A model generated the notes under the pieces. The model was not told the origin of the DNA, ran no database searches, and saw only the letters and a list, made by a program, of their open reading frames with translations. A DNA stretch of 64,000 nt from Loxodes magnus. Lineage: Eukaryota > Ciliophora > Karyorelictea > Loxodida > Loxodidae. Positions within the stretch are counted from its first letter, which is position 1, and every line of letters starts with the position of its first letter. The position numbers were made by a program, and so were the translations under genes. Positions 1-46,676 of this stretch are shown in pieces. The stretch spans positions 930,001 to 994,000 of the forward strand of contig CAMPDV010000007.1 of assembly GCA_946699065.1 (NCBI GenBank), in the 5' to 3' direction.

Positions 1-1245
1 AATCTCCTATACTTATTTTTGGTAGATACGAAACTTAAAGTATAATGGAACTTAATTTTAGTACCTAGAAATAAAAAATAAAACCTATATAGGCAAGAGA
101 GTTTGAGAGTGGATAAATTATTTTATAAATGGATTAATGCCTGGTAATTTCAGGTGGTGTGAATTAGAGATATAATCTTAATTTTATGGAGTAGGAAAAA
201 ATAAATTAATTCTAATCTGAAAACGAATGATTTGAACATGGTGCTTCCTTAGATAAAGGAAAAGGGATATTTCTTATAGCAGGCGAATACAATTAAAACA
301 AATGTGAAATTTTCAAATTCGGTGATTAAAATTTCACTTAAATTGCTGATTATCCAAAGGAATCAGCTGATCTTAGTTGCACAGTAATGAATGATAAACT
401 TTTTAGTTTTGGAGGTATTGATCTTACTGAAAGTTCAGAAATGAGTAACATTTTTTCATATTGTTCATGTTTAAATATTTGAAATGAAAGCGATCAAAGC
501 CTTCCTTGACAATCTGAGACCCTTTCCCTTACTATTCCTTAAAATTGCATACTTATTTTTAACCGAAGATTCGATGAGCAGAAAAAAATATGTATTTTTG
601 ATGAAAAAGAAATATTTGTGTATTCTGAAGATTACAAAAAGGATGAACCAGCAATATTCCATAATACAAGCAAGGAAAGATATACATCTATGATAATGAT
701 CATCAGCTTTTTGTGTTCAATATTAAAAATAAAAAATGGGTTTAGATAATATTCCAATAACAATAATTTTACATTTATTTTTTCTAAATAAAAGTGACTA
801 AATTATATCAAACTTAAATAATGATCAAGTTCTTAATTATTTAAATGAAGTCATTTTTTATTCACAAAACTTGGAAATTAATAAAAATCTCAATTAGTTA
901 GTATTTTAAAAGTTTTTAGTATTAATTTAAAAATAACTAATTTAAATTTATAAAACGGATTAAAATGGTTAAGATTATTCTTAAAATAGGGTTTAACAAT
1001 ATTCGAAAAAAAATTATATTTATATCTTAAAAGAAACATCAAAATATCAAGAGACAGAATGTTAGTGCTTATTGAAAACAAAATAAATAATTTTAAGATT
1101 TAAAGCAATAACATTACCTAAATTTATGAATATTTTAATACCTAACCTTGATGATATACATAAGCAAATACAAAACTAAGTGTTTGACGTTCTTGGAGGT
1201 ATTTTAATCTCTTTTCTGCTAATCTCTAGATTATCTAGAGGCTTA
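1..1245 (+). pseudogene. Kelch-repeat protein, 5'-truncated by window edge, frame-broken
   Basis: Read with UAR=Gln and UGA=Trp, frame 3 from the left edge gives kelch-like blades, e.g. LVISGGVN near 140-165 and LFSFGGID near 400-425, each a hydrophobic strand followed by a Gly-Gly pair. At about 635-640 the frame slips at a run of A; the continuation in frame 2 reads GKIYIYDNDHQLFVFN and ends a blade with KKW near 739. A second slip of the same sense, near 740-800, leads to an Asn/Gln/Lys-rich tail (NNDQVLNYLNEV and onward to about 1245). The beginning is outside the window. Kelch proteins form beta-propellers used for protein binding; the partner here is unknown. Two frame slips in one gene, neither fitting a GT-AG intron of sensible size, make a pseudogene or assembly deletions in homopolymers the likely reading. 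Confidence in the kelch assignment is moderate. Confidence 0.6.
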
Positions 1246-2057
1246 ATATAAAAGTTTAAATGTTTTTACAACTCTTCTCCTTGTTGCGTATACTGTCACT
1301 GAGATATCCATTTGCCTAGATAATGATTGGCATTTATGATCTTTTTTATTTTTCTAAATTTATTGCAATATAATCTTTCTCTTTCTCTTTTTATTTTTAG
1401 TTGTTGTTGCATCTTATTTCTATTTTCCAATTTCTTCTAGTAGTTTCAGCATTCTTATTTAAAGTTTTGAAATTTCTAGCATCTTTTTCATAGATAAGTT
1501 CGAGAGTTACAATAATAGCATCTTTTTAATTCTAGTTTAGACTTAAATCTCTAATTTTTTCCCCTTCAATAATCATTGGCTGATTTACTTATTCTTGTAG
1601 GTCCATTTAACGCTGCAATTCGTACTGATTTTCTTTTTTTTATTTGTTGGCCAGTTCTTTCTGTTTCTATTGTTAGTGCTATGATATACTGCTATAGTCT
1701 TGTAAAATGTTTCAAAATACATTATGGTCTCTTTCTTAGGTCATGAGTCTCGATTCTATTTTCTCTGTAAGTTCAAGTTTTTCCGTTAACTTCTTATTGC
1801 CTTTCTTCAACTTTTTGACCTCTTCCTGAGGTCCAGTACGACTTTAATCATCTAATCGTAGCTTATTTACTATTTTGTGGTGAGATTAGAGGCTTCCAAA
1901 CGCATTATATTTTTAGCCAATTTCCTATACATTTCTTCAGAGGTGGGAGAATCATCCTGATGGGAGATCTTTTCGGTACCCTTTTCCTGGCCTAACCTTT
2001 CTAGGATTTCATTAATTCCCGCTCTTTAGGAGCAGCGAAGAATCTGAACCCTGACAT
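1184..2057 (-). pseudogene. Gag-like CCHC/coiled-coil element ORF, decayed copy
   Basis: On the minus strand, ATG at 2057 opens a frame that must be changed three times, always by one missing base. The pieces align to the intact copy at 30312-31169: IKVVLDL then QEEVKKLKKGNKK, then EKIESRLMTQERDHNVFWNI against GIESRFMSQERDLNAFWNI. One break is visible directly: CCTCCAGG in the intact copy is CCTCAGG here. The zinc knuckle reads CYYCNSRTYLWKRC, so the expected His is Tyr. A KRERERLYCN segment follows, matching KRIYCN of the intact copy. Just past the coding end lies a perfect 7-bp hairpin (1224-1240). Role by family resemblance: Gag/ORF1-type nucleic-acid binding protein of a mobile element. 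This copy is surely non-functional. Confidence 0.7.
1224..1240. repeat. Perfect 7-bp hairpin at 3' end of gag-like copy
   Basis: CTCTAGA, a TTA loop, then TCTAGAG. It lies downstream (minus-strand sense) of the decayed gag-like ORF, in the same relative place as the hairpins that follow or close the copies at 6783, 30312 and 38515. Confidence 0.6.
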
Positions 2058-2310
2058 ATTTTTTTATTACTTTGAAAATGATAAATGTGAAAAGCAAAGT
2101 AATTATAAAAGAGATTATTAAGAAGATTGCTTAAATAATAAAATGAATAATTAAAATTATAGTATAATTATTAATTAACAGATAAGTCATATAAGACTTT
2201 AGATATATATGTTACTAAAATATATTAAAACTGCTGCTTATTGCAATGGTAAAAATTAAGGAGATATTTATTTATAAAATAATTATAAATTAATTAATTA
2301 AAATTATTAT

Positions 2311-2345: not shown

Positions 2346-2349
2346 CAAA

Positions 2350-5132: not shown

Positions 5133-5815
5133 AGTATTACTAATTTTTTAATTGATATTACCTTCTATTTACTTTATAAATTACTTGAAAATTAAATAAT
5201 TTTAACATTTATAAAATATTTATAGATATAAGTGATACCTTTTATTTTAATTTAAAATATAAACAACAATCTTCAAATATTAAAAAAAAAATATTTTTTT
5301 AGAACTATAGAAATTATAATTTTCACTTTATTTGAATTTAATTCCTTTTTTAAATAAATATAATAAAATAAAGAATTTAATGAAAAACTTTTTAAGAAGT
5401 AATATTAAAAAATAATTCAAATAATAATAATTAAATTTAAATTTTCCATAATAAATTAAATCAATTTTTTAGTTTATATAAAATATAAATAAAATAGTTT
5501 AAAAAACACATTTTTGACTTCGAACTATCTAATAAAGTAAATAATATTAGATTGTATTTAATTTATTTCAACTATATTTTTAGTTTAATTTTAAGTTAAA
5601 TTTACCGCTAATAGTAAAAATCTTATTTATGATTAAAAAAATTTGATTTAATCCAGTTTCTTTTCTTTAAGATAATATAAATGTTAAAATTTTATATAAT
5701 GATTTTTTAATTAAACTAATTTAAATATAAGTTTATTTAATTTTACTTTAGATTTTTCTTAATTTACAAATAATATTATTTTTATATTAAAATTATTTTT
5801 ATAATTAATTATGGT
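5133..5815. other. AT-rich intergenic DNA
   Basis: Extremely AT-rich with long A and T runs. I see no gene-like frame, hairpin cluster or repeat that I can support. Confidence 0.5.
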
Positions 5816-12600: not shown

Positions 12601-12945
12601 AAAAAAATTAATATAGTTCATTTTAATTTTTACAAAATATATTAATAAAAAAGGTAAATTAATTCTAAATTTATAACAATAAATTTATTATCTATGAAAT
12701 TATCATAAATACCATTATAATTAAAGAGATTTTAATAAATCTTTTTTCTAATGCTGTTAAACTATTTTATTAATATCATTCTTTAACAATAAAATTAAAA
12801 AATTAAATAACCAAATTAGGCTTTCTTTATAAATTATTTTATATTATTTTAATTGTAATATCAATTTTACTTAATATTTATATTTAAAATATTATTTAAA
12901 GAAGTAATAATAAAATTATAATCTCAATTGTTTAAAAAAAAAAAT

Positions 12946-13860
12946 ATGGTAGAAGGTTTCAAAAAGGGCTTCTATACCACCTCTTTCTAAGCTAAAAAGG
13001 AAGAGAGGAAGCAGGAAACCTAAATTTCTAAACACCACACGTCATCTTCCAAAACCAAACCTTCTTCTTAAACCATATAGTGTAACTCTAAACAACACCC
13101 CCCAGACAACCCTAGAAACACTAACATGCAACAATATCGACTGAGGACCTTCCCAAGAAGCAAAAGATTAGTAACTTTCAGGCCTAGATTAGGACATTCA
13201 ACCCCTACATGGACCTCGGAGATCTCAATAAAGAACAAATCTTAGGAATGACGAAGGAGGAAATGGCTAAGCTTATCTTAGCATTAATAGGAAAAAATAA
13301 AGATTTGGAAAAAAAGATTGAAGATTTAGCTTAAGAACAGCAAGAGCATTTAGAAGATGAGGAAACCCATGCTCCTAGAAACTTAAACCAGGCTGCAATG
13401 AATATCAGAATAGACGAATTCGATAGGCAGCTGGAACAATTATACGAATCGAATGAAAATATTCATATCAAATTGGAAAATTAGAGACAAGTGTAAAATA
13501 ATAGGCTATGCAATCTATCCCAATGGAGATCGAATAAGAGAATAATAAGCCAATTGAGTAAACTAAAGAGAAATATTTTAGGAAAAAATGTTACATCTGC
13601 AGGAGAGCAGACCACCTATGGAGACGATGCTGGAAGAGAAAGGAGATTTAATAGAAAATATGGAATGACCTAACCTAATTTTACCCAACCAGGAATGGAG
13701 AAATTTATAAGAAGAAAGCAAGCTATATGAAGAGACAACCATTCCGAAAACTTGACAGTGAAGGGAGGAGAAGACCACCTAGAGATCAAGTTCCTATTGG
13801 TTGGATAGGGAAGTAGGAAGCTTTTAAGTAGACGATCCTTCTTTAACACTTTAATTTAAT
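12946..13860 (+). pseudogene. Gag-like CCHC/coiled-coil element ORF, two frame slips
   Basis: ATG at 12946 reads MVEGFKKGFYTTSFQAKK, nearly the same as the start of copy 30312 (MVEGFKSGFYTTSSYAKK). The frame slips by one missing base in a CCCCCC run near 13105; the new frame gives RTFNPYMDLGDLNKEQ and a long coil (KNKDLEKKIEDLAQEQQEH). A second slip near 13490-13500 leads to SIPMEIEQENN, then a perfect CCHC knuckle CYICRRADHLWRRC (C, C, H, C at positions 1, 4, 9, 14), and the tail YPTRNGEIYKKKASYMKRQ. Alternatively GT-AG intervals of 17 nt (GTAACTTTCAGGCCTAG) and 14 nt could be spliced, but alignment to 30312 favours base loss. Role by family: nucleic-acid binding Gag/ORF1-like protein. It could be intact if the two slips are assembly errors. 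Confidence 0.65.
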
Positions 13861-13864
13861 TTAA

Positions 13865-14205
13865 TAATCCCAATTGTTTATTTATTTTAATTTCCTTTTA
13901 TTGTTTAATTATTTTAGATATTTTAATTAGATCTCATTTATTTTAATTTATTTGCAAAAAATCGGAATCTAACATTTTTTCGAGTCTTTTTATTCAGTTC
14001 CTAAAATATATTACTTAATCAAAATTATTAAAAAAATCTTTTTATAAAAAGAGAATAGTTTTAAATTAAAACATTCTAAATCCTTATTTTAAATAAATTA
14101 GTTAGAAACTTTATGAAGAAAGTATGAAATTAGCTCTAGAAAAATGTATTTATTTTAAAATTTATAAATTAAGTTTATGTTTATAAAAGTTTGCAAATTA
14201 GTTTA
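13865..14205. other. 3' flank of kinase copy 1, AT-rich
   Basis: No gene. The part from about 14050 is a diverged version of the flank that is nearly identical after kinase copies 2 and 3 (23323 and 32913 onward). Confidence 0.45.
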
Positions 14206-14208
14206 ATA

Positions 14209-16104: not shown

Positions 16105-16109
16105 AAAAT

Positions 16110-16690
16110 GATTTAATATTTCTTTTACTTTCTTGATAGATGCTTTATTTTTGCTTTTTTTTAGATTTTATAAAGTATAATTTCTCATAAATAAACTTAT
16201 AAGCATTGAAGGAAATATCTTGACTATTATACGTTCATTTTTAGTGCTAAAAAATATTTTATGTACTGAGATTTTAACTCTTACCTGAAAAAATATAAAG
16301 AAAAATGATTACTTTTATAATTTATAATTTAAATTTATTCTACTAATGATAAAGTTACTATGAAAATAGTTTATATATAACCATATAACCATATAACCAT
16401 ATATCCAAGATAAAAGATAAATAATTAAACTACATTGCTCTTAATTATTGAAATTATAATCTAACTTGATATTATTTTGATTTTCTATATTTTTACTTAA
16501 GAGATCATGTTCTATGAAAATATTCAATGTTTTTCTTATAAAAAAGTTAAAAATCAGATAAGATAACAATTCAACTCAAGATCCTTAATAGATTTGAGAA
16601 CAATTTCACATAAATCTTTTTTAAAACGATATATCATCTTTCTATTATTTTCAGATTCTTTCTATCTTTAAATTTTACTTTATACTTTAC
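16110..16690. other. Upstream region of kinase copy 1
   Basis: To about 16230 it resembles the region upstream of copy 3 (35022-35130), but with a one-base difference that breaks any shared frame, so it is likely 5' flank. 16374-16403 holds about three and a half direct repeats of CATATAAC. No gene is seen. Confidence 0.45.
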
Positions 16691-20479: not shown

Positions 20480-21760
20480 AAAACTAAAAGAAATTAATAT
20501 TAGAGTGCTAGAAAAAGAAATTATCTTTATCATATTTTAAGGTGACTAATTAAAAAATGCTAAAATTTAAAAATATGTAACTATGAAATAATGATTTAAA
20601 TAAAGCGAGCACGAAGAAGATTATTTGAAAAATTAAAAAAAAAAGGCAAAAGAAATTTAATGATATAAGTTCTGATTGCATATAATTGAGTAATATCTAG
20701 AAGAAATAAAAATGTAATAAAAATATGAAGAGCAATATGATAAGCATATTTTGTTAAAATTTAAAATCAATTAAATCTTAAAAAAGCCTTCTCTATTTAA
20801 AAAGCAATATTAAAATATTATGACTGAAGTATTAAACAAAAAAATTAATAATAATAAAAATTATCTTACTTTGCTAAAACTCAAAGTATATAATGAACTT
20901 TTTTAATTTAAAAAATAACGGAATAAAGAAATTTGCAACTAAGAAAGAAATAAATAACAATAAAAAACTATTTAATCCGAAAAATTATAATAGATACCAA
21001 GAATATTAATAAACTTATTGTAAAATAATACGAAGAGACTTATAAATAAGGAGAACAAAATAATGAAGCATTTATTTTATTATAATAGACTTAAAAATAT
21101 CTTATATGAAAGTCTTCTAATAAATAAAATATATTAATAGTCTCAAGAAGTTTAAATTATTTGAAATTTATTTGAAAAATATAGTAAGAAAATCTGAAAG
21201 CATTGAACAATCTCAAAATTCTTTAGCAGATCTTGGATCTTTAGAGAAGAGGGAGAAAATAATAATTTTTTATAAAAACTATGCATATGGAACAGATTGG
21301 AAGGTATTCTTTTTGGAGTGTTAGTCTGAGATCTTGAAAAAGATATAAAGGGAAAATTCATGAAAGCTCAAGATTAGTTTTTATTAATGAAGCTTGAGTT
21401 TTATGATTTTATTGATAAGAGTAAGCTTGAAATCTAATTCTCCTGCATAAATTATTAAAAAGACAGCAACTCCATAGGTTCAAATGAAAAGTAATAGTCA
21501 AACTGTTTTAAAAGCTTTTTAACAAACTCCTATCAACTATTTTTATCGAATTTCGTAGAAAGTAATCTGATAATCGAAAAATAAAGCTCGTAAATTAAAA
21601 ACATGCTTAGCAAGTTAAAAAAATTGTACAATAAAATATCTTATTTGATATCTCTAATTCAGTAAAGCATCAGAAGAAAGCAAACATATACAACTTAATT
21701 CAATTACTCTAAGTAATACTATGACATTTAATTCCAAGTGTCAATTACGTAAAGAAAGAG
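20480..21760 (+). pseudogene. Decayed relative of the 505-residue protein gene at 57958
   Basis: The clearest part, near 21290-21345, reads EQIGRYSFWSVSLRS then KRYKGKIHESSR. It aligns with EQIGKHSFWKIDLRSGERYQAKIHKSPR of the intact gene, and nucleotides for SPAEIIRKPETP are also recognisable downstream (near 21440-21480). Upstream, 20900-21150 gives Gln/Lys-rich coil text similar in kind to the middle of the intact protein. Frames are broken several times. Sequence homologous to its 3' flank occurs in unit 2 at 31550-31900, but the recognisable coding core is missing there. Confidence 0.5.
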
Positions 21761-21764
21761 ATTA

Positions 21765-23530
21765 AGAAGAAGTATGCGCAGCAAGAAAATAAGAAATTTA
21801 ATAAGAATTTGAAGATTTTTCAAAAGAAAATAAAAAATAGAGAAAAGATTTGAATAGTAAACTAAGTAATAGTTAATGTATCTCCATATAAATTTTATAG
21901 AAGAAATAAATTTTAGAGGATATAATTAATTTAAAAATGATTGATGCAAATGTAAAGCATAGATATTTCATACTTTTATATAAATTTTTGAGTTTAATAT
22001 ATTAAGATGAAACTCATTTTGAAATTTTTAAGTATATTTTACAAGAACGTAAAGCACATAAGAAGAAAAGATAGGATGGGCAAATAAAATATTTCTAAAT
22101 CAAGAAGTTACATTAATTACTAAATTTTAGAAATGTATGTGAATATTTTGTTGATTTTTAGTTAAATTAAAAATAATTAAACAATAGCTTATTGCTCATA
22201 TTTTATTATCATCTTTATGTAAAAGAATGTTTTAATTTTTTTTATGGAAAGAATATGTTTTAAACAAATTAGTCATTAAGAAGGAGCTAAAGAAAATGTT
22301 TTATATTACTAAATTTGATAAATTCTGCCTATATTCTTTTGTTGCTGATAATTTAATATTTTTCTTGCTAAAAAGATTAAAATTTTGCTGTATAAAACTT
22401 TTTATTTATTTAAATAGTAAAATTACAGCCATTTTTATATATTTTTAGTTCTTCAATTATCTTTGCTAATATTTTGTTTGCTAAAAAACATAATTATCAG
22501 CTTTTAAAAAGTTGAGAGATCTTCTAGATCATTATAGAATTTATTATTTACTTAATTAATTAAAAATATAACAATTCATTTAGTATCTTATAAATAGCCA
22601 CTTCAAATATTCTTATAAGCCTATTCTCATTTTATTTTAAGAAAGTTTGCATAACTTGGTTAAATTTTTTAATTTTTTTTACAGAACATATTTAGTGATA
22701 TTTATGTTCATCTCATATCTTTTAACTTATACGAATGAGATACCAAAATTTAGCATATTTTAATTTAATTTATAATTCTGTGGGGATTTGAAAATAAAGC
22801 AACTTTAATGATAAAGAATATATTTATTCCTTTTATGTTTTAGTTTAAATTTGTAGCAAGATTTGAAAATTATCTAAATCAGGCCTATTGATTGATAACT
22901 TCGTAATCTATGGAAATTAAAATTATATTTCATTAATTCCTAATTATTACTTTTTTTCACTGAATTTTCTGCAAATGAAATGTCTCTTAAAACTATTATT
23001 TGAATCTTTAATGACTTGCAACTATTATTTTTCAATAAATACTTACAACTCTAAACTTACTAATATGTAATTTAAATTTAGCTTGCCTAATTTATTAATA
23101 GTATGAGAATCTTCCAAGAACAGAAAGCATTAAATTTGCAACATTTTTAGATAATTACCAAGTATTAGTAAAATAATTAATGGATAGATTCATATTTTAT
23201 CCATTTTTATTTAGAATATTGAGATTAAGCAAATATAGCTAAATAAGTAAATTTTGTTTCTCTTTTCTTTAAAATTATAATATTTAATTTAATCAGATGC
23301 TGATAAAGTTTATGTATAACACTTTGGGTTTTCATTTATAAAATTTGAATACAAAAAGAGAAAATAATTTAAATCTTTCTAAAATAGGTTACTTTAAATA
23401 AGTTTCTAAGAACTTTATAAAGAAAATAAGAAATTAGCTATGCAAAGAGTATTTATTTTACTATCTATAATTAAGTTTATTTTGGTAAAATTTAAATAAA
23501 ATAGATTAATACCATATTTAGCAAGTTTGG
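21765..23530. other. Unit 1/2 junction region, AT-rich
   Basis: The left part is homologous to 31690-32900 of unit 2. From 23323 on it is the 3' flank of kinase copy 2, nearly identical to that of copy 3 from 32913. No gene supported. Confidence 0.45.
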
Positions 23531-23532
23531 TT

Positions 23533-25407
23533 TCAAGGTGATGTTGCCTAAGGTTCATTTAACTCTTCACCATTTTGGTTAAAAAAAAATTGTAATATTT
23601 CCTCATTTTGTAAGAATCAGTGTTCTGACAATATTAATCATATAGTGCCACTATATTCAAAATTACTTTATTCATGATAAAAGATAGGTCCTCCTACAGG
23701 GGTTCAAATTTCATGGAATCTACTATTTCCAATAATCCTATTATCATATTAGTTCTTTAATCATTTATATCTATAGAAAGGAAAATTTTGCTAAGAAAAA
23801 AAATCTGTAACTTTATAGATTTTCCCTTCATTAAATTGATCTTTGATATCTTATACTAATTAAAATTATCCAATTTAGATTTATTTTGGGAAATTACTAA
23901 CAAAATTAGTAAAATTGCTCCATAATTTATAAAACTTTATAAAGTTTATTTTAAAAATTGTAGTTTTATAAGATTCTTCGAAAATATAATCTACTTACTC
24001 GTAATAATTTATTTACTTCTTTATATCTTCTAGTTTTTGTTCCATAATATTAAGCATTCCTTGGTTATTTTTTGCTTCAATATATTTTTCCTTTTAGTTT
24101 TAAAAGATTTGAAGTCATTCTGGTATTTCTTATTTATTTTCATAGTATTCTAATTTCCATAAGAGTTAAATTTTGACTTCGAAGGAGTTTTCGAAAGTTG
24201 AAAACATACTATTATCTCAATAAAACTCAAAAAACACCAAATTAATTCTACTATCATTGTCTAATCATTTATTTATTTTAAATGTTCCTCTTAATCTTTC
24301 ATTATTTATTACATCGAAAAAATCTTCATCATTAAAATAATTAAATAAGACCAAAATCAAAAATCATAAATACCATAATTTTATTTGTGCATATCAGAAA
24401 TTTAAACTAGCATTAACTTTTTCTGTATTCGATTCCCGATATTTTTATTAACAAATTTATTAAATTCCGAATTATTCTTCGTGATATCTTTTGAGATCTA
24501 AAAAAATATCTTTTGCAGAGGGTCTTTCATCGGGATTTTTATTTAAGCATCTTTATAAAAAAATTATTTTAGGGGGCAAATCATATTCATCTAAGAAATC
24601 ACTTGTTTTATATAAAAAGCAAGCTATTCTTCCGAAACTGTATATATCAGTCTTTTCTGTTGGTATTAATTTTTACTCTTACTCAGGAGACTTATAATTT
24701 TCTGATTCTACAAAAATTTTGTTACTTCAGTTAAAGTCTGTCGAAAAGTCAAAGTCAGATATTTTAGCGACATAATGTTCATTGATTAGAATATTCTAAG
24801 GCTTTAAGTCCTAATGAATAATCTTCTTGCTATGAATGAAATATAATCCTTCTGCTATGTCTTTCAGAATCTCTAATTTTATTTATTCTTTTTTTGTATC
24901 TTCTAGTTAGTTAATTTCATCTATGCAATCTTCCAATGTTCCCTTGCTTTAATACGGAAATATGAGGTACATTTTATTTTAAGAAAAGCAAAATCCTTTG
25001 AAGGTTAGAATGTTTGGATGATTTAGTTTACCATGCTACTTTAATCCTTACAAAATTAGATCTAAATTGCTTAAGTCAACAATTTTAACTACTAAATTTT
25101 ATTTGTTTCATTCAATTTTGTACACGGAAGAATTTTTACCCTCAAAAATTAAGATTTTTTTTTCATCAAAATTAAGTTTTTCAAGTGAATACTCCTTTAG
25201 AACTCCGAGTTTAGCATATTATCTCAACTAATGAATAACTTATGGATTGGTTTCCATTTAAGTTTGATAATATTTGAATTTATTTACAGTTTGACTAATA
25301 TGACTAACTAAAATTAACTAAATAAACAAAATTGAAATTAAAATCTTAGTATTTAGAGCATTATTGTCTATTTGTGCTTATTCTAACTACTCAAACTTAG
25401 AAATCAT
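23533..25407 (-). CDS. Membrane-anchored protein kinase with coiled-coil C-terminus, copy 2
   Basis: 624 residues, ATG at 25407, TGA at 23535-23533, frame exact. Layout as in copy 1: N-terminal hydrophobic helix, kinase domain, second hydrophobic helix, coiled-coil C-terminal region. The catalytic loop is HQDLKPQN, and the DFG-equivalent reads DFD because the codon is GAC where copies 1 and 3 have GGC, so this is the copy most likely to bind Mg-ATP. The domain end is NPDERPSAKDI. The juxtamembrane stretch (24286-24390) encodes FNDEDFFDVINNERLRGTF and is unlike copies 1 and 3. The C-terminus stops 7 codons sooner than in copy 1. Similarity with copy 3 ends abruptly at 25432, just upstream of the start codon. 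Confidence 0.85.
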
Positions 25408-25434
25408 AAAATGATTTAATATTTCTTTTACTGA

Positions 25435-27439: not shown

Positions 27440-29110
27440 TTTAAGTTTAGATTTAAAGGATTGAACTGTATTTTAAATATTTATTAAGCTATTTTTAAAT
27501 TTTCTAAGTTTATAGGGAAATGCTTTTAACTTGCATAAATAATAAAAGATATTATAAAAATATAAATAAAAGGTAAATTTAGAATTTATACTTCGTAAAT
27601 AATAAACTTCTTAAGGAAAATAGCAATAATTAACTAAAATAATAAAGCTTACAATCAAAACATTTAATTAGATATAGCTAAGCTATTTAATCTAAGTAAC
27701 ATAATAGAGACTTTAAATTAAATGATACTACTTATTAATTAATCTGTCTGCTAATAAAATAATTTATTTATTTAGTTTCCTATCACTTAAATCTTATTAT
27801 ATAACCTACAAATAATGCTTTTATTGCTAATTTAATCTTCATCACTATTATTTAAGAATTTAGGAATTTAAATGTTATCAAGATTAATAAGAAAAGAGAT
27901 AACTAGTTTCTTTTAGCAGAAGATAATAGGGGTAATTTAACGTAGGTTGATAATTATAAATTTTAGTCTTAATAAAATGATAATTAAAGCAGGGAATGAG
28001 CTAACTTATTAATCTAATGCAAAGGAAAAAGTGAAATTCCCAAGTAGTATGGTATAATCTCAATTATATTTTAAAACTTCAAGCAAATTACAATATCGAT
28101 ACTTAATATTTATAATTTTGACACAGTAGAAAGCTAAAAATCACTATTTAAACCACCTAATTTTCACTGATGATTTTTCTAAAAGAAATTGAGAAAGCTT
28201 AATATAATAAATATAGCAAATAGTCGTAAAATATAAATGACAAGTAAAAAGTTTTAACCAAGTTTATAGCTGCCCTGTCTTCAAAATTAAGAATTATTTT
28301 TTTAATTTAAAGTATGTTTTAATTATATTTGAACTACAAAGTTTTTAGTAGTATTAGTTCTCTTAAAGTAGAAATATGATCTAATTAAGCCAATACAAAT
28401 TATATAGCATAATTTATGAAGTTTTCGAAAAACTAGAACTCATAAAGTATTTTTCATAAAAGCAAGAAAATATTTTATATATAAAAAGGAAAAACAATTA
28501 AATTCTATGACTCTACAAAAAAATCATTCTATAAATTGCACTAAAATTTATTTATTTTGAGATTAAATAATTAAGACGAAAGATAGAGTTTTAGCATAAC
28601 TATAAAATTTGATCTAATTTTTAGCATTTAACCATAAAGGAGATACTAGCAGAAATCAAGGTTGAAAATAGGAAAAATTTACGATTGTGAAATATTAAAA
28701 TAATTAGATTACTGAGTATCTTCCTATATTTGCATATAATTACTTAATAAAGAATATACTCATTTAAGCAATTATACAATATAATTTGCTTTATTTGCAT
28801 TTATTATCTAAGATTACCTGCATTTCAAATTATTTAAACTAAATATATTTAAATTAATTATTCAATTTTAGTAATAGATATAAAAACAGGTTTATAATCT
28901 TGTTTGATATACGTCAATATATTATAACTATTCTTTCAAAAAAATTTAAATTTCAGATAATTTAAATTTAAAATAAGAGTGCATAAGATTATGCAATCTA
29001 TTTAACTACTTTTTTAGAATATTAATTTATGTTTCATTCGTTATTGTGATTTTAATTATTATTCAAGCTTTTATTATTATAATCTTAGAGCAATATGAGT
29101 AGAGAGATAA
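27440..29110. other. Intergenic part of tandem unit 2
   Basis: AT-rich. Homology to unit 1 (18130-19690) runs on and off up to about 29095, where the unit-2-specific element starts. No gene seen. Confidence 0.45.
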
Positions 29111-29113
29111 GGA

Positions 29114-29641
29114 ATGGAATTATTTAATATAATACGAGACACGGTCAAATTCGAGAAAATCATTAGAACCTAAGAAGAGTAAAAAAGATCTAAAGCTGAC
29201 TTGATAATAAAAAATTATATCAAAGATATATTAGAAAAAAGGAAAAGAGGATATATAGAAAAGGAAATTGAATGAAAAAAAGAAATAGAAAAAGACTATA
29301 GAGTAGGAAAAGGATAATTTTTATGAGTGTATAAAAGCTTGATCAAGAAGAAAATAATTAGAAATGAAAATTAGTAAGATATGTTAGAAAAAATAAAATA
29401 AGCTTGCAATAAAAATCTAATAAAGTGTAGATAGATAGAAGACAGAAGAACAAGAGATAATGTAGAGAAAAATGAGGAAGATATGTAACTAATAAGAGAA
29501 GAATTTCTATTACCTGAAGACTTACTTGAAGAAACGGACATATATTGAGATATGATAAGAGCTGCGCACCAACGAGGTGCAACGCGCTCTATAATCAAAT
29601 TTATTTATTATATCAATTGTATAATAATCAGTAAATTTTGA
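29114..29641 (+). CDS. Upstream ORF of the unit-2 mobile element, unknown function
   Basis: 175 residues from ATG at 29114 to TGA at 29639-29641, no break. Highly charged and helical-looking: MELFNIIRDTVKFEKIIR, DILEKRKRGYIEKEIEWKKE, QFLWVYKSLIKKK, then an acidic stretch (EEDMQLIREEFLLPEDLLEE). It ends in RAAHQRGATRSII, which is encoded by the AGAGC...GCTCT palindrome, and a hydrophobic tail. The gag-like ORF follows on the same strand 670 nt later. The last 30 nt (around 29609-29640) recur at 38229-38262, upstream of the intact gag-like ORF at 38515, so the two ORFs probably belong to one element. I recognise no domain; it lacks any visible polymerase or nuclease motif. Confidence 0.6.
29558..29590 (+). 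repeat. Dispersed AGAGC...GCTCT palindromic element, reference copy
   Basis: AGAGCTGCGC, loop ACCAACGAGGTGCAAC, GCGCTCT. It lies inside the end of the ORF 29114-29641. Copies or variants without that ORF: 2311, 2740, 9122, 46645. Confidence 0.7.
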
Positions 29642-30311
29642 ATGAAGCATATATAAAAAGAATATGAAAAAAGATTTAGATACTAGTATTATAGATATAT
29701 TTTTGTAAACGCAAGAGAAACGTTGTGATGCTGAAGATTAATAAAATTAAATACTTCTTTATTTTAATTTATAAAGAGAATACAATATTAATAAAGCAGA
29801 TTAGAATTTTATAACGTAACATAATTTATTATTGAGGTTCCATCTTTATTTTATTTATTATATAATAATTTACTATTTAAAAATATTATTAGCTCAAGTT
29901 TGATAAGATCTTCATTGTTATAAGTCTTGACAATTTTAATATTTTTTTCTTGATTTTTTACAATAGATCAAACCAAATCATTTTATATTGGATTAATTTA
30001 TTTAGATATAGGAAGCTTATTTTTTATTAGGAGCATAAATTTCTAAAAAGTAAATCTTCATTTGTTTAGTATATTTTAAATATATATTATTATTATTTTC
30101 CTATTATACTCTTTTATTTTTATTAACATTGGTAACAAATTCGTATTTTATGCCCTACTTGCTTGCAATATCAGAATATCATTATTTTCAGATTATAATT
30201 TCTAATGTTGGAGGTTATTAATCTATATCCATTGCTTCGTTGGTTCATTTTGGTTTAAAGTTTTTGGAATTTTAAATTTCTTTTATAATTTATTCTGTTA
30301 ATAAATAAAAA
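29642..30311. other. Spacer between the two ORFs of the unit-2 element
   Basis: AT-rich, no ORF supported. It presumably holds the leader of the gag-like ORF. The corresponding spacer upstream of 38515 is only about 250 nt. Confidence 0.4.
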
Positions 30312-31169
30312 ATGGTTGAAGGTTTCAAGTCAGGCTTCTATACCACCTCTTCTTATGCCAAAAAGGAAGGGAGGAAGCAAGAAACCAAGACTTAATAATC
30401 TTAAAAATTTTCTCTATCACAACCTTAACCAACACTGAACTAACAACTTGGAATCTAACAAATCGAACGAAAATCAACCTTAAATAATATTCACACAGAA
30501 ACTCCAACCTCAAGCGAGAAACCGAGGAAACAGATGAAGTCTGTTCTCCACCAGGAGGTATCAGAGTTCAACCCTTCTGGCCAGATGAGCATGGAGTAGC
30601 TCATCAAAGTGGTACTGAACCTCCAGGAAGAGATCTAGAGATTGAAGAAGGACAATGATATGCTGATGGAAAAGCTAGACCTAGCAGAAGGAATTGAGTC
30701 AAGATTTATGTCCTAGGAAAGAGATCTTAACGCCTTTTGGAATATCTCGCAAAGTCAGACTAACGAATCCTAAAATTAGCTTTAGAAGCAGACTGAACTG
30801 GATAGCAGACTCGGAAAAGTAGAAGAGAAATTGTAAACTTTTAAGAAAGAGTAAAGCGAAACTGGAGCTATAAAAATGGAAATCGAAGCCTAGAAAGAGC
30901 AAACAAATCAAGGAAAATAATTCAAAATAAAAAAGAAATGTTTCTGTTGTGGAAGCGTATGACATTTTTATCGGAAGTGTTAGAAATTCTGATAGAAATA
31001 AAGAAACTATTGGATAAAAGAACAACAAAAGAAGAAAAAAGAAAAAGCAAGAATGAAAAGAATATATTGCAACCCAGATGGTTCAATATACAAGATCAAG
31101 ATGGAACCATATCAAGTAAAAGGAAGGAAAACCTGGAGAAACCCGTGTTTTCAATCTCGCTAAAATTGA
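30312..31169 (+). CDS. Gag-like CCHC zinc-knuckle coiled-coil protein, intact copy
   Basis: 285 residues in one uninterrupted frame, ATG 30312 to TGA 31167-31169. N-terminus MVEGFKSGFYTTSSYAKK, a Ser/Thr/Gln-rich linker, FNPSGQMSMEQLIKVV, then a coiled coil (NLQEEIQRLKKDNDMLMEK). MEIEA precedes a perfect knuckle CFCCGSVWHFYRKC (C, C, H, C at 1, 4, 9, 14; its Trp is TGA-coded), then a Lys-rich helix and KRIYCNPDGSIYKIK. The knuckle plus coiled coil is the layout of Gag or LINE ORF1 proteins, which bind element RNA and multimerise; that role is inferred. After the stop come a hairpin (31198-31219) and an ATT-repeat tail (31262-31281). With ORF 29114 it forms an insertion of about 2.2 kb in unit 2 that unit 1 lacks. 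Confidence 0.75.
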
Positions 31170-31197
31170 ATGTCCCAAACATTTATATTTAACAGAA

Positions 31198-31219
31198 GGA
31201 GCATGAACTGCTGTTCTCC
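31198..31219. repeat. 3' hairpin of the gag-like element
   Basis: GGA, GAAC, loop TGCT, GTTC, TCC, with a 4-nt bulge (GCAT) on one side. It lies 28 nt after the stop codon and 43 nt before the ATT-repeat tail. Confidence 0.5.
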
Positions 31220-31261
31220 TGACGGGGTTGAAAATTCTTAAAACAGAAAACTCAAAATTAA

Positions 31262-31281
31262 TATTATTATTATTATTATAA
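31262..31281 (+). repeat. ATT microsatellite tail of the gag-like element
   Basis: About six ATT units. A similar TAT/ATT run (39328-39347) ends the copy at 38515. Simple-repeat tails are typical 3' ends of some non-LTR retroelements and SINEs, but here the link is an inference. Confidence 0.55.
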
Positions 31282-31284
31282 CTT

Positions 31285-33120
31285 ATTCTGTTAATGTAGC
31301 TCTTCCTTAAATTTCCACATGAACGGATTTAGAGCTAGTTACTATCATAAAATTGAGTTTTCCGATTTTTAAATTTCTGTAAAGTTTAGTAAATTATTAG
31401 TTTGTTGATAAAGTTCCTAATAGCCTTTTTTAATGCTTAGTTCTTAATCTAAAGAAGTAAAAGATTGTTGACTACATTCTGATAAAAATTATTAGATTTG
31501 CTGGAGAGGTCAGTTAATTCTTAGGCATCATTTTTTAAATATAATAAACAAGTTTAAAAATTTAACAATAAAATATCTTAAATGATCCCTAACTCTGTAA
31601 AAAGTAGGAAAGTAATATAATCTAATTCAATTACTCTAATGCCATTGATATTGAATTCTAAGTGTCAACTCGCAGTTAAGAAAAAAATTTGAAGACAAAT
31701 ATGTAGTGATAAATAAATTTCTAAGTAATATATTGCAGATTTTTCGAAAGAAATTAATTAAAAAATTAGGTTAGAATAGTAAATTATACAGTATTTATTA
31801 TGTCTCTATAGGAAATTCCATAAAGAAAAGTTTTTAGAGGATATAATAATTAAAAAATAATATATGTAAAAGAAAAATAAAAACAAATCATACTTGAAGA
31901 TTAACTTTTGAGGAATAATAATATATTAAGATGAAAATAATCTTGAAATTTTTTAGTTTCTTATAAAATAATGTATATCGCAGAAGAAGAAAAGAGATAA
32001 GATGAGCGAATTTATTAACTTGAAAATTTGAAGTAATTAACTTAATTTTTTTATTTCATGTGATTATTTTTATTTCTTCAATAAATTAAAAATGCTTAAA
32101 CCTCCAGCTAATTTATTCACCTTTTATAGTATTTTATATGTAATAGAATAATTAACTTTTTGCTTAATTGAAATATACTCTCTTAATAAATTAATCATTA
32201 AGATTGAATAAAAGATAATTTTATATACTTCTAAATTTGATGAATTACGAATCCATCTATTCCTAATAATTAATTTTTTTTCTTGCTATAATTTTTATGA
32301 AGTTAGGCTTTTCTTTGCTAAAAAATTAATCTCTTATAAGTATAACATTTTTATTCTTTTGAAAAAGTAAATTACTGGCATTTATATAAATTATTTGCTT
32401 GCATTCCTTCAATTATCTTAATTAATATTATAGTTTGTTTACTAAGTATATTATAAATAATTATTTCAAATATTCTTACTTCTTCTAAGTTTATTCCTTT
32501 TTTAAATATACATAACATTGCATAAATTATTGATTTGTTACAGAATATATTTAGTGACATTTATGTTTATTTCATATCTTTCAGCAAAAATAAGGGGCAA
32601 ATACCAAAATTTAGCATATTGATACTTCTATTAATAATTCTTTTAAGAATTTAAAAATAAAATTAATTCCATTGCCAAAAATTTATTTCCCTTTCATAAT
32701 AAATCATTAACAATATTTAATAATAATCTATATAAGTTTACTGCTTGATATCTCATAAATCTATGCAAATAGAATACATATTGCAATAGTTCATAGTTAT
32801 AACTTTTATCACTGAAGTTTTTAATGAAAAAAGTCTCTTAAAACTATTACTTGAGTCATTCATTACTGCAATTATTATTCTTTAATAATGTCTACAATCT
32901 AAAAATTTACAATTTGGGTTTTCATTTATAAAATTTGAATACAAAAAGAGAAGATAATTTAAATCTTTCTAAAATAGGTTACTTTAAATAAGTTTCTAAG
33001 AACTTTATAAAGAAAATAAGAAATTAGCTATGCAAAGAGTATTTATTTTACTATCTATAATTAAGTTTATTTTGGTAAAATTTAAATAAAATAGATTAAT
33101 ACCATATTTAGCAAGTTTGG
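31285..33120. other. Remainder of tandem unit 2
   Basis: 31550-32900 is homologous to 21640-23280 in unit 1, with many indels. From 32913 it is the 3' flank of kinase copy 3. No intact gene. Confidence 0.45.
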
Positions 33121-33122
33121 TT

Positions 33123-34997
33123 TCAAGGTGATGTTGCCTAAGGTTCATTTAACTCTTCACCATTTTGGTTAAAAAAAAATTGTAACATTTCCTCATTTTG
33201 TAAGAATCAGTGTTCTGACAATATTAATCATATAGTGCTACTATATTCAAAATTACTTTATTCATGATAAAAGATAGGTCCTCCTACAGGGGTTCAAATT
33301 TCATGGAATCTACTATTTCCAATAATCCTATTATCATATTAGTTCTTTAATCATTTATATCTATAGAAAGGAAAATTTTGCTAAGAAAAAAATTTTGTAT
33401 TTTTATATATTTTCCCTTCATTAAATTGATCTTTGATATCTTACACTATTTAAAGTTATCCAACTTGAATTTGCTTGGGAAATTTGCAAGTAAAATTTGT
33501 GAAATTGCTTCATAATTTATAGCATTTTATAAAATTAATTTTGTTAATTGCGGAGTAATAGGATTCTTCGAAAATATAATCTACTTACTCGTAATAATCT
33601 ATTTACTTCTTTATATCTTCTAGTTTTTGTTCCATAATATTAAGCATTCCTTGGTTATTTTTTGCTTCAATAAATTTTTCTTTTTAGTTTTAAAAGATTT
33701 GAAGTCATTCTGGTATTTCTTATTTATTTTCGTAGTATTCTAATTTCCATAAGAGTTAAATTTTTACTTCGAAGGAGTTTTCGAAAGTTGAAAACATACT
33801 ATTATCTCAATAAAACTCAAAAAAAACTAAATTAATTCTACTATCATTGTCTAATCATTTATTTATTTTAAATATTTCATCTATTTTCTCAGGTTTGAAT
33901 GTACTAAAGATTCCCTCATTTTAAAATTGATAAAATTAAACTAATACGTAAAATCATAAAAACCAAATTTTTATTTGTGCATATCAGAAATTTAGCCAAT
34001 TATTAACTTTTTCTGTATTCGATTCCCGATATTTTTATTAACAAATTTATTAAATTCCGAATTATTCTTCGTGATATCTTTTGAGATCTAAAAAAATATC
34101 CTCTGCAGAGGGTCTTTCATCTGGATTTTTATTTAAGCATCTCCTTAAAGTAATTAAATTTTATGGTAAATCTTATTCATCTAATTTATTGATTGTTTTA
34201 TATAAAAAGCAAGCTATTCTTCCGAAACTGTATATATCAGTCTTTTCTGTTGGTATTAATTTTTACTCTTACTCAGGAGACTTATAATTTTCTGATTCTA
34301 CAAAAATTTTGTTACTTCAGTTAAAGTCTGTCGAAAAGTCAAAGCCAGATATTTTAGCGACATAATGTTCATTGATTAGAATATTCTAAGGCTTTAAGTC
34401 CTAATGAATAATCTTCTTGCTATGAATGAAATATAATCCTTCTGCTATGTCTTTCAGAATCTCTAATTTTATTTATTCTTTTTTTGCATCTTCTAGTTAG
34501 TTAATTTCATCTATGCAATCTTCCAATGTTCTCTTGCTTTAATACGGAAATATGAGGTAAATTTTATTTTAAGAAAAGCAAAATCCTTTGAAGGTTAGAA
34601 TGTTTGGATGATTTAGTTTACCATGCTACTTTAATCCTTACAAAATTAGATTTGATTTGCTTAAGTCAACAATTTTAACTACTAAATTTTATTTGTTCCA
34701 TTCAATTTTGTACACGGAAGAATTTTTACCCTCAAAAATTAAGATTTTTTTTTCATCAAAATTAAGTTTTTCAAGTGAATATTCCTTTAGAACTCCGAGT
34801 TTAGCATATTATCTCAACTAATGAATAACTTATTTATTGGTTTCCATTTAAGTTTGATAATATTTGAATTTATTTACAGTTTGACTAATATGACTAACTA
34901 AAATTAACTAAATAAACAAAATTGAAATTAAAATCTTAGTATTTAGAGCATTATTGTCTATTTGTGCTTATTCTAACTACTCAAACTTAGAAATCAT
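33123..34997 (-). CDS. Membrane-anchored protein kinase with coiled-coil C-terminus, copy 3
   Basis: 624 residues, ATG at 34997, TGA at 33125-33123. Same architecture as copies 1 and 2. HQDLKPQN is kept; the DFG-equivalent is GFD as in copy 1, so the metal-binding Asp is missing. The domain end is NPDERPSAEDI. Identity is patchy: the last part of the gene and 3' flank match copy 2 almost base for base, the 5' side and upstream DNA match copy 1, while 33395-33565 differs from both. The juxtamembrane segment (33876-33976) encodes NEGIFSTFKPEKIDEIF, different again. Likely made by duplication followed by gene conversion. Confidence 0.85.
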
Positions 34998-35021
34998 AAA
35001 ATAATTTAATATTTCTTTTAC

Positions 35022-36175
35022 TTTCTTGATAGATGCTTTATTTTTGCTTTTTTTTAGTTTTTTCTAAAATATAAATTCTCATAAATAAACTTACAAGCAT
35101 TGAAGGAAATACTCTGAATAGTGCTTAGAAGTTTTTTATTTTAAAAGTGAGTATTGTATACACTGATTTTTTAAATCTTGCCTAGGAAAAATAAAAAAAT
35201 GTAAACTACTTAAATAATTTCTAATTTATTTGTATGCTTATACTACTTATATCCAAGTTAATATAAGCATACTTTTTATATAACCATATATCCAGGTTAA
35301 AAGTTCTATTATTAAATTAACTTATTAAATCTTCTAATTTTAAATTATTTTAATTTGGCTTATTATTAGTTTGCTTTATGATAAGATTGCTTAAAATATA
35401 TTATTAAATCTAAGTTAATTTATAAGGAAAAATAGTCTTTCTTAATAAATAGCTTAAATGTATAAAATTAGTTTATTTTTAATTAATTTAATTTTGATAT
35501 AAAGAACATTAAGTACTTAAATTTAAATATAAGATTGTGCTATTATTAAAATTAAATCTTACTTTATTTCTTCTTTATTAACATAATAGAATGCTTATTG
35601 TTATTTACTAATTATACTAATATCACTACTATTAATTAAGTTCATACTATTTTTAGCAAAATTAAGACGGCTTGCTAGCATGTATTTAGTAAAAGAGTAT
35701 AATGCTAATGTTTAAATAAATTTTTGCAATTTTCTTTAGTGAATTTTGCATATATGTTTAAGTTTTTTGAAATAGAAATTTTAAAATTGGGTTAGGAAAT
35801 TTGTTTGAGTAGAATAAAAAAATTTTAAATATCTCAAGTCTCTACTTATATAAATACAAAAACTTAGACAAGAAATTACCTTGCTCCATGTCACTAAAAC
35901 AGATTTGCGATAGATTAGAATTAGATTTTTTCTGCTCAAAATATTATCCCTTCTATATCTCCTAACCTTTTCTACTCTAAATAACTATTTTTAGTTTTAA
36001 GTAGAACTCCTATTTCTATTTTCTTATTTTCTCATTTACATAAAATATTTCTGTAGCATTCTTTTTTCTTATTTGTATCTTGTCAGATAATCTCACTCTT
36101 TTCTTTTATTAAATTTTATCGATTTATGTATCAAACTTTGGCATATTTTCTATTTTATTAAAATTATTAACTAGC
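35022..36175. other. Upstream region of kinase copy 3
   Basis: The first about 110 nt resemble the upstream region of copy 1. The rest is AT-rich without a supported gene. Confidence 0.45.
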
Positions 36176-37481: not shown

Positions 37482-38512
37482 CTATTTATATAAGTTTTTA
37501 GAATATGCATATTTAAATTTAAAATTGAGTTCATTCGTTTTAAATGCTTATTAAATGATTTATGAAATTATTTACTTAAATGGAAATCCTTTTAACTAGT
37601 ATTATAAATAAAAGATATTAATAATAAAAGATGAATTTAGATTTCTAAATAACTAACATAAGCTAATTTAAGAGAAAATTAATTATTTGTTAAAAAGTAA
37701 AAGTTTAGAATTAAAAGACTGAATAGTTATAACTAAAATATTTAGTTTTAGTAAATGTACTAAAGACTTTAAATTAAACTTTATAAAGCGTAGTTATTAA
37801 TCTATTTATCTGCTAATAAACATTAAGTTTATTAAGGGTGCTATCATTTATATCTTATTATTTATATATAGCTTATAAATAAGGCTTCTATTGCTAATTT
37901 AAGTTTAATCACTATTTAATAATAAAAAGCATTGAATCAAGTCATAAAGATTAATAAGAAAATAGTAATTTCGTTTTAAGCAATAGATAGTGGAGGTAAT
38001 AAAATATAGGTAGATAATTATATAATTGATATGAAATAGGTTTTGAAATTATATTTCATTATATAAAATATATAATATGCTACTTATTAAAAACTTTTTA
38101 AATTTCATATAATTATTAGATTAAATATGATATATGAGATTAATTAATCTATATAAATATTTATTATTTATACATTTATGCTTTGTTCTTTATTGTTAAT
38201 TTAATAACTATACAAACTTTAAATTATATCAATTGTATAATAATAAAGCTATTTTGAATAAAGACTTTAAGAATAATTAAAAAAAAATATATTAAAAATT
38301 AGACTTAAAGAAAAAGCTAAGAAGATTATAAGGAAAAAAATGAAGTATTATTGTGATAAAGAAAAGGTTTATTTAAGATTATAATTTTTAGACTTTTAAT
38401 AGTTATAAAAAAATCAAATATTATTAAGATAATCCAGTAATAAAAATAATTTACTAAGATAAATTTATCATAATGATTCTTCACACAATTAACAATTAAA
38501 TTGGCTAAAAAA
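37482..38512. other. End of tandem array; remnant of the element's upstream ORF
   Basis: AT-rich. 38229-38262 matches the last bases of ORF 29114-29641 (TTATATCAATTGTATAATAA and following), 250 nt before the intact gag-like ORF at 38515. No other coding sequence is supported. Confidence 0.5.
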
Positions 38513-38514
38513 AA

Positions 38515-39360
38515 ATGGATTAATCTCTTCGACTCTCAAAAAATTAACTTAGAAACCTAAAGAAAAAAGCGGCAAAAGAAATTTAGAAAAAATAATAACA
38601 ATAGGAGGAGTCAAGCTCTTCTTCAGAAGGTAAAGTTATGGTAGGATAAATAGAGATAAGTTAACCTAAAAACGAAACTAATCAAAAACTTTAAATTTAA
38701 TTAGACCAAATGTAAAAAGTAATCTCAAATTATGAAGAAACAACTTACAACTTAGGCGAAAAAATACGGGAACTAATGAGTAATATAGAAGATTAGAACA
38801 ACGAATTACTAATACTTAGAAGATAACTTATTTGTAGCAAATTAATAACGGAAGAATAACTCTGAACTTAATCATAATAAAATTTTAAATACGACACAAA
38901 AATGGAAATAGAAAAAATACCAATAGAATTAAAAACAGAATTGAATCCAGAAAAAGAAATGATTGCTACAAGTTTCATTAAAAGATTAGAAAATATAGAA
39001 AATAAATTATCATAAAAAAGAACGAAATAAAGACAATAATACAAACTTTGTTGATGTTGCAAATCAAATCAACATATTTTAAAAAACTGTTGATAATGAA
39101 AGAAAATAAACGAATAAGAGCAGAAAAGAACATGGAGACAACTCAATAAACTATGAATAACTCCAACAGGGATCTACAAATAAAAGCTTTTTGCAAGACC
39201 ACTTGAACGGTTACAGTGGTAACCTTCCACTTAATAAAAAGGTCGTGGATCACACCCACGTTAAAAAAGCTGTCCGCAGGAACTGGTTGCAATTCCAGAG
39301 AATGCAAAACTCTACTAACTTTAAGTATATTATTATTATTATTATTAACAATTAAATTGA
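38515..39360 (+). CDS. Gag-like CCHC zinc-knuckle coiled-coil protein, second intact copy
   Basis: 281 residues, ATG 38515 to TGA 39358-39360, uninterrupted. N-terminus MDQSLRLSKNQLRNLKKKAA, a Ser/Glu patch, then a coiled coil (NYEETTYNLGEKIRELMSN). KMEIEKIP leads to a perfect knuckle CWCCKSNQHILKNC (C, C, H, C at 1, 4, 9, 14; Trp coded by TGA) and LWITPTGIYKQKL, the family C-terminal signature. It is far diverged from copy 30312 outside these motifs, so it is a separate subfamily. The last 50 codons run through three perfect hairpins and the TAT-repeat, so the true stop may be an earlier TGA, e.g. after the knuckle, though the signature Trp argues against that. Role by layout: nucleic-acid-binding Gag/ORF1-like protein. 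Confidence 0.7.
39209..39298. repeat. Cluster of three perfect hairpins in the 3' part of the gag-like copy
   Basis: GGTTAC/GTAACC (39209-39224), CGTGG/CCACG (39244-39260) and CTGG/CCAG (39283-39298), in 90 nt that are much richer in G and C than the surroundings. A TAT-repeat tail follows at 39328-39347. Confidence 0.65.
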
Positions 39361-46250: not shown

Positions 46251-46644
46251 TTATTATACTTATTAATGTTTATTGCATTTTTATTAATGAGAATAAAATA
46301 AGTAATTACACTATTAATTATATTGTAAGTCTCTCCTTTTCCATTAGATGTGAAGCTTATTTCTCTATTAAATCAGTAAAATCTAATAGTTAAAGAAATT
46401 TAATTAATTTAAAGTAATTTTATTCTAATTATTAATCTGCAACGATTCAGATTTTCAATTCTTATGATCAATTTATTTCATTGCTATTGAATAACTTATT
46501 TTTAATTTCAAATGTTACCCAAATATCTCTTTTTTTCAGTTTCCTTTTATTATGTATATTATCTAAAAATAAATAAATCTAAGATTTAGCACTATCTTAT
46601 ACATAACTCACTGTTTTTAGTTAATAAATAATAAATTCTATTAT

Positions 46645-46676
46645 AGAGTGCCTAGAACCTTGTTGGTTTACAGCTC
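46645..46676 (-). repeat. Dispersed AGAGC...GCTCT palindromic element, diverged long-loop form
   Basis: AGAGTGCCTAGAACCTTGTT then GGTTTACAGCTCT: imperfect arms, but the loop still resembles that of 2311 and 29558 (CTTGTTGG against CTTCATTGG). Flanks TTAT and TTTT are kept. Confidence 0.5.

Follow-up and report, generated by a model that had tools for sequence, protein, structure and literature searches.

A segment of about 2.2 kb (29095..31285) in the genome of the karyorelict ciliate Loxodes magnus raises the question whether it is one mobile element with two open reading frames (ORFs), as was proposed in an earlier note made from the sequence alone. The segment lies in the second of three tandem units in the window, i.e. 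the whole stretch of 64,000 nt analyzed here (contig CAMPDV010000007.1, positions 930001-994000, abbreviated C7:930001-994000). The note described an intact ORF of 175 residues, a palindrome, a second intact ORF with a coiled coil and a CCHC knuckle, a 3′ hairpin and an ATT tail, with no polymerase in view. In this study, we show that the segment consists of two separate retro-insertions 0.7 kb apart: the tail of an ordinary long interspersed nuclear element (LINE), here named LINE-A, and a member of an ORF1-only retroposon family, here named el. It is probable that el is a full-length, non-autonomous retroposon of about 1 kb, HAL1-like and coding for ORF1 only, that is moved in trans by a LINE, with the truncated LINE-A copy as a separate insertion.

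Non-autonomous retroelements are mostly non-coding, such as the short interspersed nuclear elements (SINEs), or deletion derivatives of LINEs. With an ORF1-only family that is coding and whose protein is under selection, one could test directly why a parasite retains its own nucleocapsid-type protein, and also how a foreign reverse transcriptase (RT) is recruited. Moreover, some of the L. magnus repeats that have been listed as unclassified may be explained by el. In the main text of the genome paper (PMC11441545), the terms non-autonomous, SINE, gag, zinc and CCHC are nowhere mentioned.

The window has a G+C content of 22.6%. Under genetic code table 27, UAA and UAG are read as glutamine. According to the main text of PMC11441545, L. 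magnus uses this table, with UGA as tryptophan or stop depending on context, and its 706-Mbp macronuclear assembly holds about 2,700 RVT_1 copies and more than 30,000 elements classed as LINEs. Our genome-wide searches covered 705,730,643 bases in 7843 contigs. RT matches therein hold UAA, UAG and UGA in frame together; the best row, for instance, has 8 TAA, 4 TAG and 7 TGA. Because nearly all frames are open when UAA and UAG are read as glutamine and UGA as tryptophan, openness of a frame is no evidence here.

Two separate insertions in one segment

In a strict self-comparison of the window, the homology between units 1 and 2 ends at 19675/29070 and picks up again at 21611/31549, so that the segment has indeed no alignable counterpart in unit 1. 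Permissive scoring was dominated by A/T background and stricter runs were used instead. Opposite the segment, unit 1 carries about 1.9 kb of different sequence and is therefore not a simple empty site.

The whole 2.2 kb was searched against the genome, and the best 40 of 7763 first-look candidates were scored. This gave 42 matches: the window itself, 39 copies of the second part only (93-94%), and two extra matches. One of these (75%) is a second match beside the C248 copy; the other, of 52 nt, hits the LINE hairpin next to the C138 copy. None of the 39 copy alignments reached the first part, the hairpin piece being the sole extra match to it. The upstream part, i.e. the region of the first ORF, matched sequence downstream of the RT in all 20 loci fetched, with 82-88% identity; these loci (L009-L028) rank highest among the 150 RT matches listed.

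The first part is a 5′-truncated LINE-A copy at 29082..29611 (+), comprising the C-terminal end of the RT frame and the 3′-untranslated region (UTR). Over 543 nt the window is 87% identical to nt 4989-5529 of LINE-A in locus L031, so that the insertion corresponds to about nt 4995-5529 of an element of 5.54 kb, and both terminate at the same hairpin followed by a TTTA tail. The hairpin at 29559..29590 (+), with an exact 22-mer at 29559, is the palindrome described before, and the supposedly intact first ORF is the C-terminal part of a LINE RT frame. Since this ORF is the tail of a polymerase-bearing LINE, the statement that no polymerase was in view does not hold, and a split retroelement need not be assumed.

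The LINE-A fragment has a weak target-site duplication of its own, in which 7 nt match exactly or, if one gap is allowed, about 10. Its flanks, when joined, align to tandem unit 3 with a score of 149, whereas the 5′ flank by itself scores 107 and the 3′ flank 60. Against 300 other window stretches, the 3′ flank reached no more than 56, so that 60 barely exceeds background. We take unit 3 to be the empty site of the fragment. The end of the first ORF had been reported to recur upstream of 38515; the sequence that recurs there (about 38213-38311) belongs to the host flank of the LINE fragment.

Ends, duplications and copies of el

The retroposon el spans 30303..31275 (+), about 0.97 kb, and terminates with an (ATT)n tail; the 3′ structure and the tail after the second ORF are present as described. 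Its ends are common to the 39 further copies and were followed by genome-wide pattern counts. Target-site duplications of 20 nt, at 30283..30302 (+) on the 5′ side and 31276..31295 (+) on the 3′ side, match in 19 positions. All 39 copies were read with their flanks, 13 were dropped for a shared insertion site, and 27 including the window copy remained. As these are the best-scoring copies, the sample is biased to young, full-length ones. A duplication score of at least 12 was obtained at 18 of the 27 distinct sites vs 15 of 702 mismatched flank pairs, and a score of at least 10 at 21 sites vs 64 pairs. Duplications at the majority of sites and numerous copies with common ends are the opposite of what the note had named as refuting evidence. 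The median private divergence of the copies is 1.35%, and all 40 copies with both ends read are about 1 kb long, too short for an RT.

The copies inspected carry (ATT)n at the 3′ end, and their duplications vary between about 12 and 20 bp. No direct repeats of at least 60 nt flanking el, and hence no long terminal repeats (LTRs), were found in the window. The best explanation of variable-length duplications and a simple-repeat tail without LTRs would be a non-LTR retroposon inserted by target-primed reverse transcription (TPRT).

In the whole genome, 29-mers from the 5′ end, middle and 3′ end of el gave 936, 1002 and 679 matches, respectively, and the reversed-pattern controls gave 0; on the 27 copies the same patterns matched 26, 26 and 22. 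This corresponds to roughly 700-1000 copies, with 5′ ends not generally lost. LINE-A 29-mers (up to 2 mismatches) gave 2264 matches for the 3′ end and 500 for the 5′ end, with 0 for the reversed control, an excess that 5′ truncation of LINEs would produce; these patterns were uncalibrated on known copies, and the 3′ 29-mer differs by one mismatch from the window hairpin. The shortness of el alone may explain why it differs from LINE-A in the loss of 5′ ends. Pairing of exact 5′ and 3′ places of el yielded 5 pairs only, from 100 and 39 places. Twelve other loci taken from 40 matches to the 3′ end of el comprised seven full-length copies, three 5′-truncated copies and two with an inverted middle at the same site. 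The latter two (L074, L076; two contigs) have the inversion at about nt 130-747 and both ends in normal order.

Encoded protein and coding constraint

The ORF of el (30312..31222, +) starts with MVEGFKSGFYTTSS..., followed by heptads that are coiled-coil-like by eye, CFCCGSVWHFYRKC and the YCNPDGSIYKIK motif. A CX2CX4HX4C zinc knuckle with a UGA read as tryptophan inside is located at 30939..30980 (+). In a six-frame motif scan (UAA and UAG as glutamine, UGA as tryptophan), exactly three perfect knuckles were found in the window, at 30939, 13589 and 39049, in agreement with the earlier count. The ORF has about 303 codons, with the UGA at codon 303 as family stop about 50 nt before the tail. 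This is consistent with the short 3′-UTRs of L. magnus given in the main text of PMC11441545 (mean 53, median 41 bp). Of the 27 copies, 26 carry TGA in the terminal column. A start was recognized in 21 copies; this TGA is in frame in 12 of them (codon 303 or 304), and the UGA within the knuckle falls on codon 215 or 216 in 19. Contrary to the note, the window copy is not intact, because a 1-nt deletion near the end of the ORF shifts the frame before the terminal UGA.

In the AlphaFold model of the protein, helices were predicted at residues 94-203 and 215-249, and strands at 265-269 and 272-276 forming a C-terminal hairpin. With a mean pLDDT of 61.5 and a pTM of 0.23, local features alone count; the k13 row of the input alignment, k13 being a relative of el in the window (see below), was frame-shifted over the knuckle. 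A Pfam search gave nothing at E ≤ 0.001 (two matches below the cut-off, 0.018 and 0.02), and a PDB search by sequence gave 0 matches. Passages of PMC4120745, which lists types I-V, characterize the ORF1 types I-IV of Khazina and Weichenrieder by RRM plus CCHC, by coiled coil, RRM and CTD, by PHD, and by an esterase. With no Pfam match at E ≤ 0.001 and a low-confidence model of long helices and a hairpin, the el protein falls into none of types I-IV.

In comparisons between families, the observed/expected ratio of nonsynonymous to synonymous differences (N/S) was 0.39-0.50 in the el ORF frame in 8 of 8 cases and 0.78-1.91 in the other frames. The comparisons were made for el or L004 against r35, L8s, r1 and k13; they share sequences and are not independent, and for k13 only about 95 sites were comparable. 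Taken together, the second ORF encodes a Gag/ORF1-like protein with coiled coil and CCHC knuckle, belonging to a recently active retroelement without RT, which upholds this part of the earlier note.

LINE families of the genome and proposed mobilization of el

LINE-A has a length of about 5.5 kb, since the copies in L029, L031 and L033 align across 5.5 kb with 97% identity. It contains Exo_endo_phos, Exo_endo_phos_2 and RVT_1 domains as well as a CCHC motif in its ORF1, and terminates with a hairpin followed by TTTA repeats. Both LINE-A and a second family, LINE-B, have endonuclease plus RT, a length of 5-6 kb and (TTTA)n tails. L034 is a 71% relative of LINE-A with a T run as tail. LINE-A and LINE-B are perhaps rnd-1_family-27 and -19 of PMC11441545.

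Further LINE-A 3′ end fragments lie in the window at 2283-2363 (-) and 46623-46679 (-), the former about 230 bp upstream of the decayed el relative r1 on the same strand. In C5131 and C20, RT matches recur at a spacing of 2532 bp, which reflects either tandemly arrayed LINE pieces or an artefact of the assembly.

Alignment of el with LINE-A at the 5′ end scores 23, and none of 2000 plain shuffles scored above 14. About 10-13 N-terminal residues of el are similar to LINE-A ORF1; over the peptide FKxGFYTTS most differences are synonymous (by eye), which suggests that the likeness lies in the peptide. The el-type profile did not detect the LINE-A ORF1 in L029, L031 and L033.

We propose that el would be transcribed from just upstream of its AUG, as suggested by the shared 5′ end, and that its mRNA would be translated by the karyorelict code (UAA and UAG as glutamine, UGA as tryptophan) up to the UGA about 50 nt before the tail. 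Judged from its domains, the protein may oligomerize via the coiled coil and coat its own RNA via the CCHC knuckle. The resulting particle would then rely on a LINE to supply endonuclease and RT in trans, and one might speculate that the FKxGFYTTS peptide common with LINE-A ORF1 serves for recruitment. TPRT at A/T-rich sites would then generate the observed duplications of about 12-20 bp and the (ATT)n tail.

Contrary evidence and alternative explanations

Several observations weigh against this reading. SINE-like elements often carry the 3′ end of their partner LINE. The 3′ end of el scores 14 against LINE-A, below the shuffled maximum of 17, so that the two share no 3′ end, and its (ATT)n tail differs from the (TTTA)n of LINE-A and LINE-B, the latter compared by eye. 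As 3′ ends and tails are unlike, trans-mobilization by some LINE is proposed and not by LINE-A specifically. Nine of the 27 el sites score below 12 for a duplication, six of them below 10, and the window yielded no empty site of el. The absence of an RT is based on the sample of copies of about 1 kb that were read, so that a relative with an RT may exist. The 3′ count of el (679) is below its 5′ count (936), the reverse of the LINE pattern. The exact middle is in place for only 9 of 30 exact 3′ ends and 32 of 66 exact 5′ ends, and therefore one end of many el copies is truncated or has diverged. Within the 27 copies there is no codon-position bias (singletons 100/110/111 and shared variants 44/38/37 at positions 1/2/3), and 10 carry a frameshift. 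As recent copies look neutral and N/S between families is low, the constraint seems to have acted on lineages and not on inserted copies.

The strongest alternative, which we consider clearly less likely than the explanation above though by no means far-fetched, is that el is a true half-LINE in the sense of HAL1. It would then have arisen by deletion from an autonomous LINE that escaped detection and has the same ORF1 and (ATT)n 3′ end. HAL1, as described in passages of PMC5753468, is a precedent. Also, the 3′ end of el matches none of the LINEs examined, so that an (ATT)n-tailed LINE may exist, and the RT survey scored the best 150 of 3403 candidates only. Among these no LINE with an (ATT)n tail was found. 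The 14 RT loci with visible 3′ ends (L029, L031-L037, L083-L088; L030 and L038 do not count among them) speak against a half-LINE, being of the LINE-A/LINE-B type, with L037 unrelated and bearing another 3′ end; moreover, LINE-A and LINE-B were both absent from another 12 loci of 1.24 kb each that were taken at el 3′ ends.

An improbable option, raised before and less likely than a retroposon, is a Gag-derived host gene family whose copies are processed pseudogenes. Such pseudogenes would be neutral like the recent el copies, with constraint seen between families, as is the case. Against it speak the hundreds of el copies and the fact that el, k13 and k39 are different families, every one of which has a tail and duplications of its own. 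That the ORF of 175 residues and the CCHC ORF move as one two-ORF unit without RT is very unlikely. Both parts do lie in one segment without a unit 1 counterpart, and in the loci read, ORF1-type elements frequently lie next to 3′ fragments of LINE-A; the copy alignments confined to the second part, the matches of the first part at RT loci, the lack of the first part in unit 3 and the separate duplication of the second part identify two unrelated insertions. LTR retrotransposons have flanking LTRs and fixed short duplications, and although coiled coil plus CCHC is gag-like, the lack of flanking direct repeats in the window together with duplications that vary from 12 to 20 bp and a 3′ tail of simple repeats, both indicative of TPRT, makes it extremely improbable that el is the gag region of such an element.

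Relatives of el and comparison with known systems

Three relatives of el were delimited in the window. The element k13 (12935..13863, +) encodes MVEGFKKGFYTTSF..., has a TTTAA-type tail, the CCHC motif at 13589 in a shifted frame and a duplication of 16/17 nt. The element k39 (38504..39343, +) has an (ATT)n tail, the CCHC motif at 39049 and a duplication of 16/16 nt. The decayed r1 (1050..2058, -; ends approximate) has lost the His of the knuckle. Besides el itself, an el-type profile gave a total of four relatives in the window, at 7111-7503 (+), 13169-13819 (+), 38683-39282 (+) and 1805-1281 (-), three of which were profile seeds. Thus, relatives of the second ORF exist as claimed, and their stated number of at least six was not reproduced.

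Outside the window, L037 contains k39-type sequence, as do L085 and L087, which are near-identical to each other, and an element starting with MASKK and carrying a CCHC-like motif lies beside the LINE in L029. ORF1-type elements and LINE fragments frequently adjoin in the loci read. At about 4551 in L032 and in the 3′ flank of L063, a truncated LINE-A and a LINE-A tail, respectively, abut (ATT)n tails of ORF1-type elements; our guess is that A/T-rich tails serve as insertion targets. A 3′ hairpin that appeared common to an ORF1-type element and LINE-A in L034 is really a LINE-A tail fragment in reverse orientation. The hairpin of the MASKK-type element (L029/L080) resembles that of LINE-A by eye; its alignment score of 16 stays below the shuffled maximum of 20, and it was not used.

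Tentatively, and with the odds rather against it, el, k13, k39, r1 and the MASKK-type elements might form one old, self-diversified superfamily of short ORF1-only retroposons with a packaging protein under selection, long reliant on the RT of LINEs with unrelated ORF1s, which would be recruited via a copied N-terminal peptide and not via a shared 3′ end. If true, this superfamily would be a long-lived class of protein-coding non-autonomous retroelements intermediate between SINEs and LINEs.

HeT-A of Drosophila has a Gag-type protein and no RT, as does el; HeT-A is telomere-specific, whereas el is dispersed with ordinary duplications. LINE-A and LINE-B share with el the genome, the TPRT-type insertion and the CCHC motif in ORF1, and LINE-A also the 5′ start, but they are 5-6 kb long, with endonuclease plus RT and (TTTA)n tails. 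HAL1 (half-L1) of mammals is, like el, a short non-LTR element coding for ORF1 only, and passages of PMC5753468 describe it as a non-autonomous L1 derivative with ORF1p only and several origins. HAL1 has the ORF1 of the LINE it derives from, whereas the resemblance of el to LINE-A ORF1 is confined to about 10-13 residues at the N-terminus; unlike HAL1, el has a 3′ end different from LINE-A and an ORF constrained across diverged families. The EKA family of Blumeria consists of genes derived from a LINE ORF1, and the abstract of PMC4641428 gives over 1350 homologues of a portion of this ORF1 within a single genome. EKA is presented there as truncated retrotransposon copies co-opted as effectors, whereas el is a short element with its own ends. 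No description of ORF1-only retroposons in ciliates was found in the titles and abstract openings listed from open-licence PMC text, those of papers on Paramecium (PMC5405496) and Tetrahymena (PMC6564038) included.

Further features of the window

An Rfam scan of the window gave 0 matches. A repeat of about 230 bp (31329-31557) adjoins the 3′ side of el and is 73% identical to 3121-3345 in opposite orientation. The stretches 20802-21492 and 58365-59085 are 63% alike over 742 columns and are perhaps coding, or another diverged repeat or gene family. The three tandem units have 9.3-9.6 kb each, with a core of about 2.1 kb that is 89-94% identical (14027-16129, 23334-25432 and 32909-35022 in the self-comparison) and a remainder of only about 65-83% identity. 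The core, in which a minus-strand open stretch of 566 codons runs from 34453, is perhaps a gene under selection.

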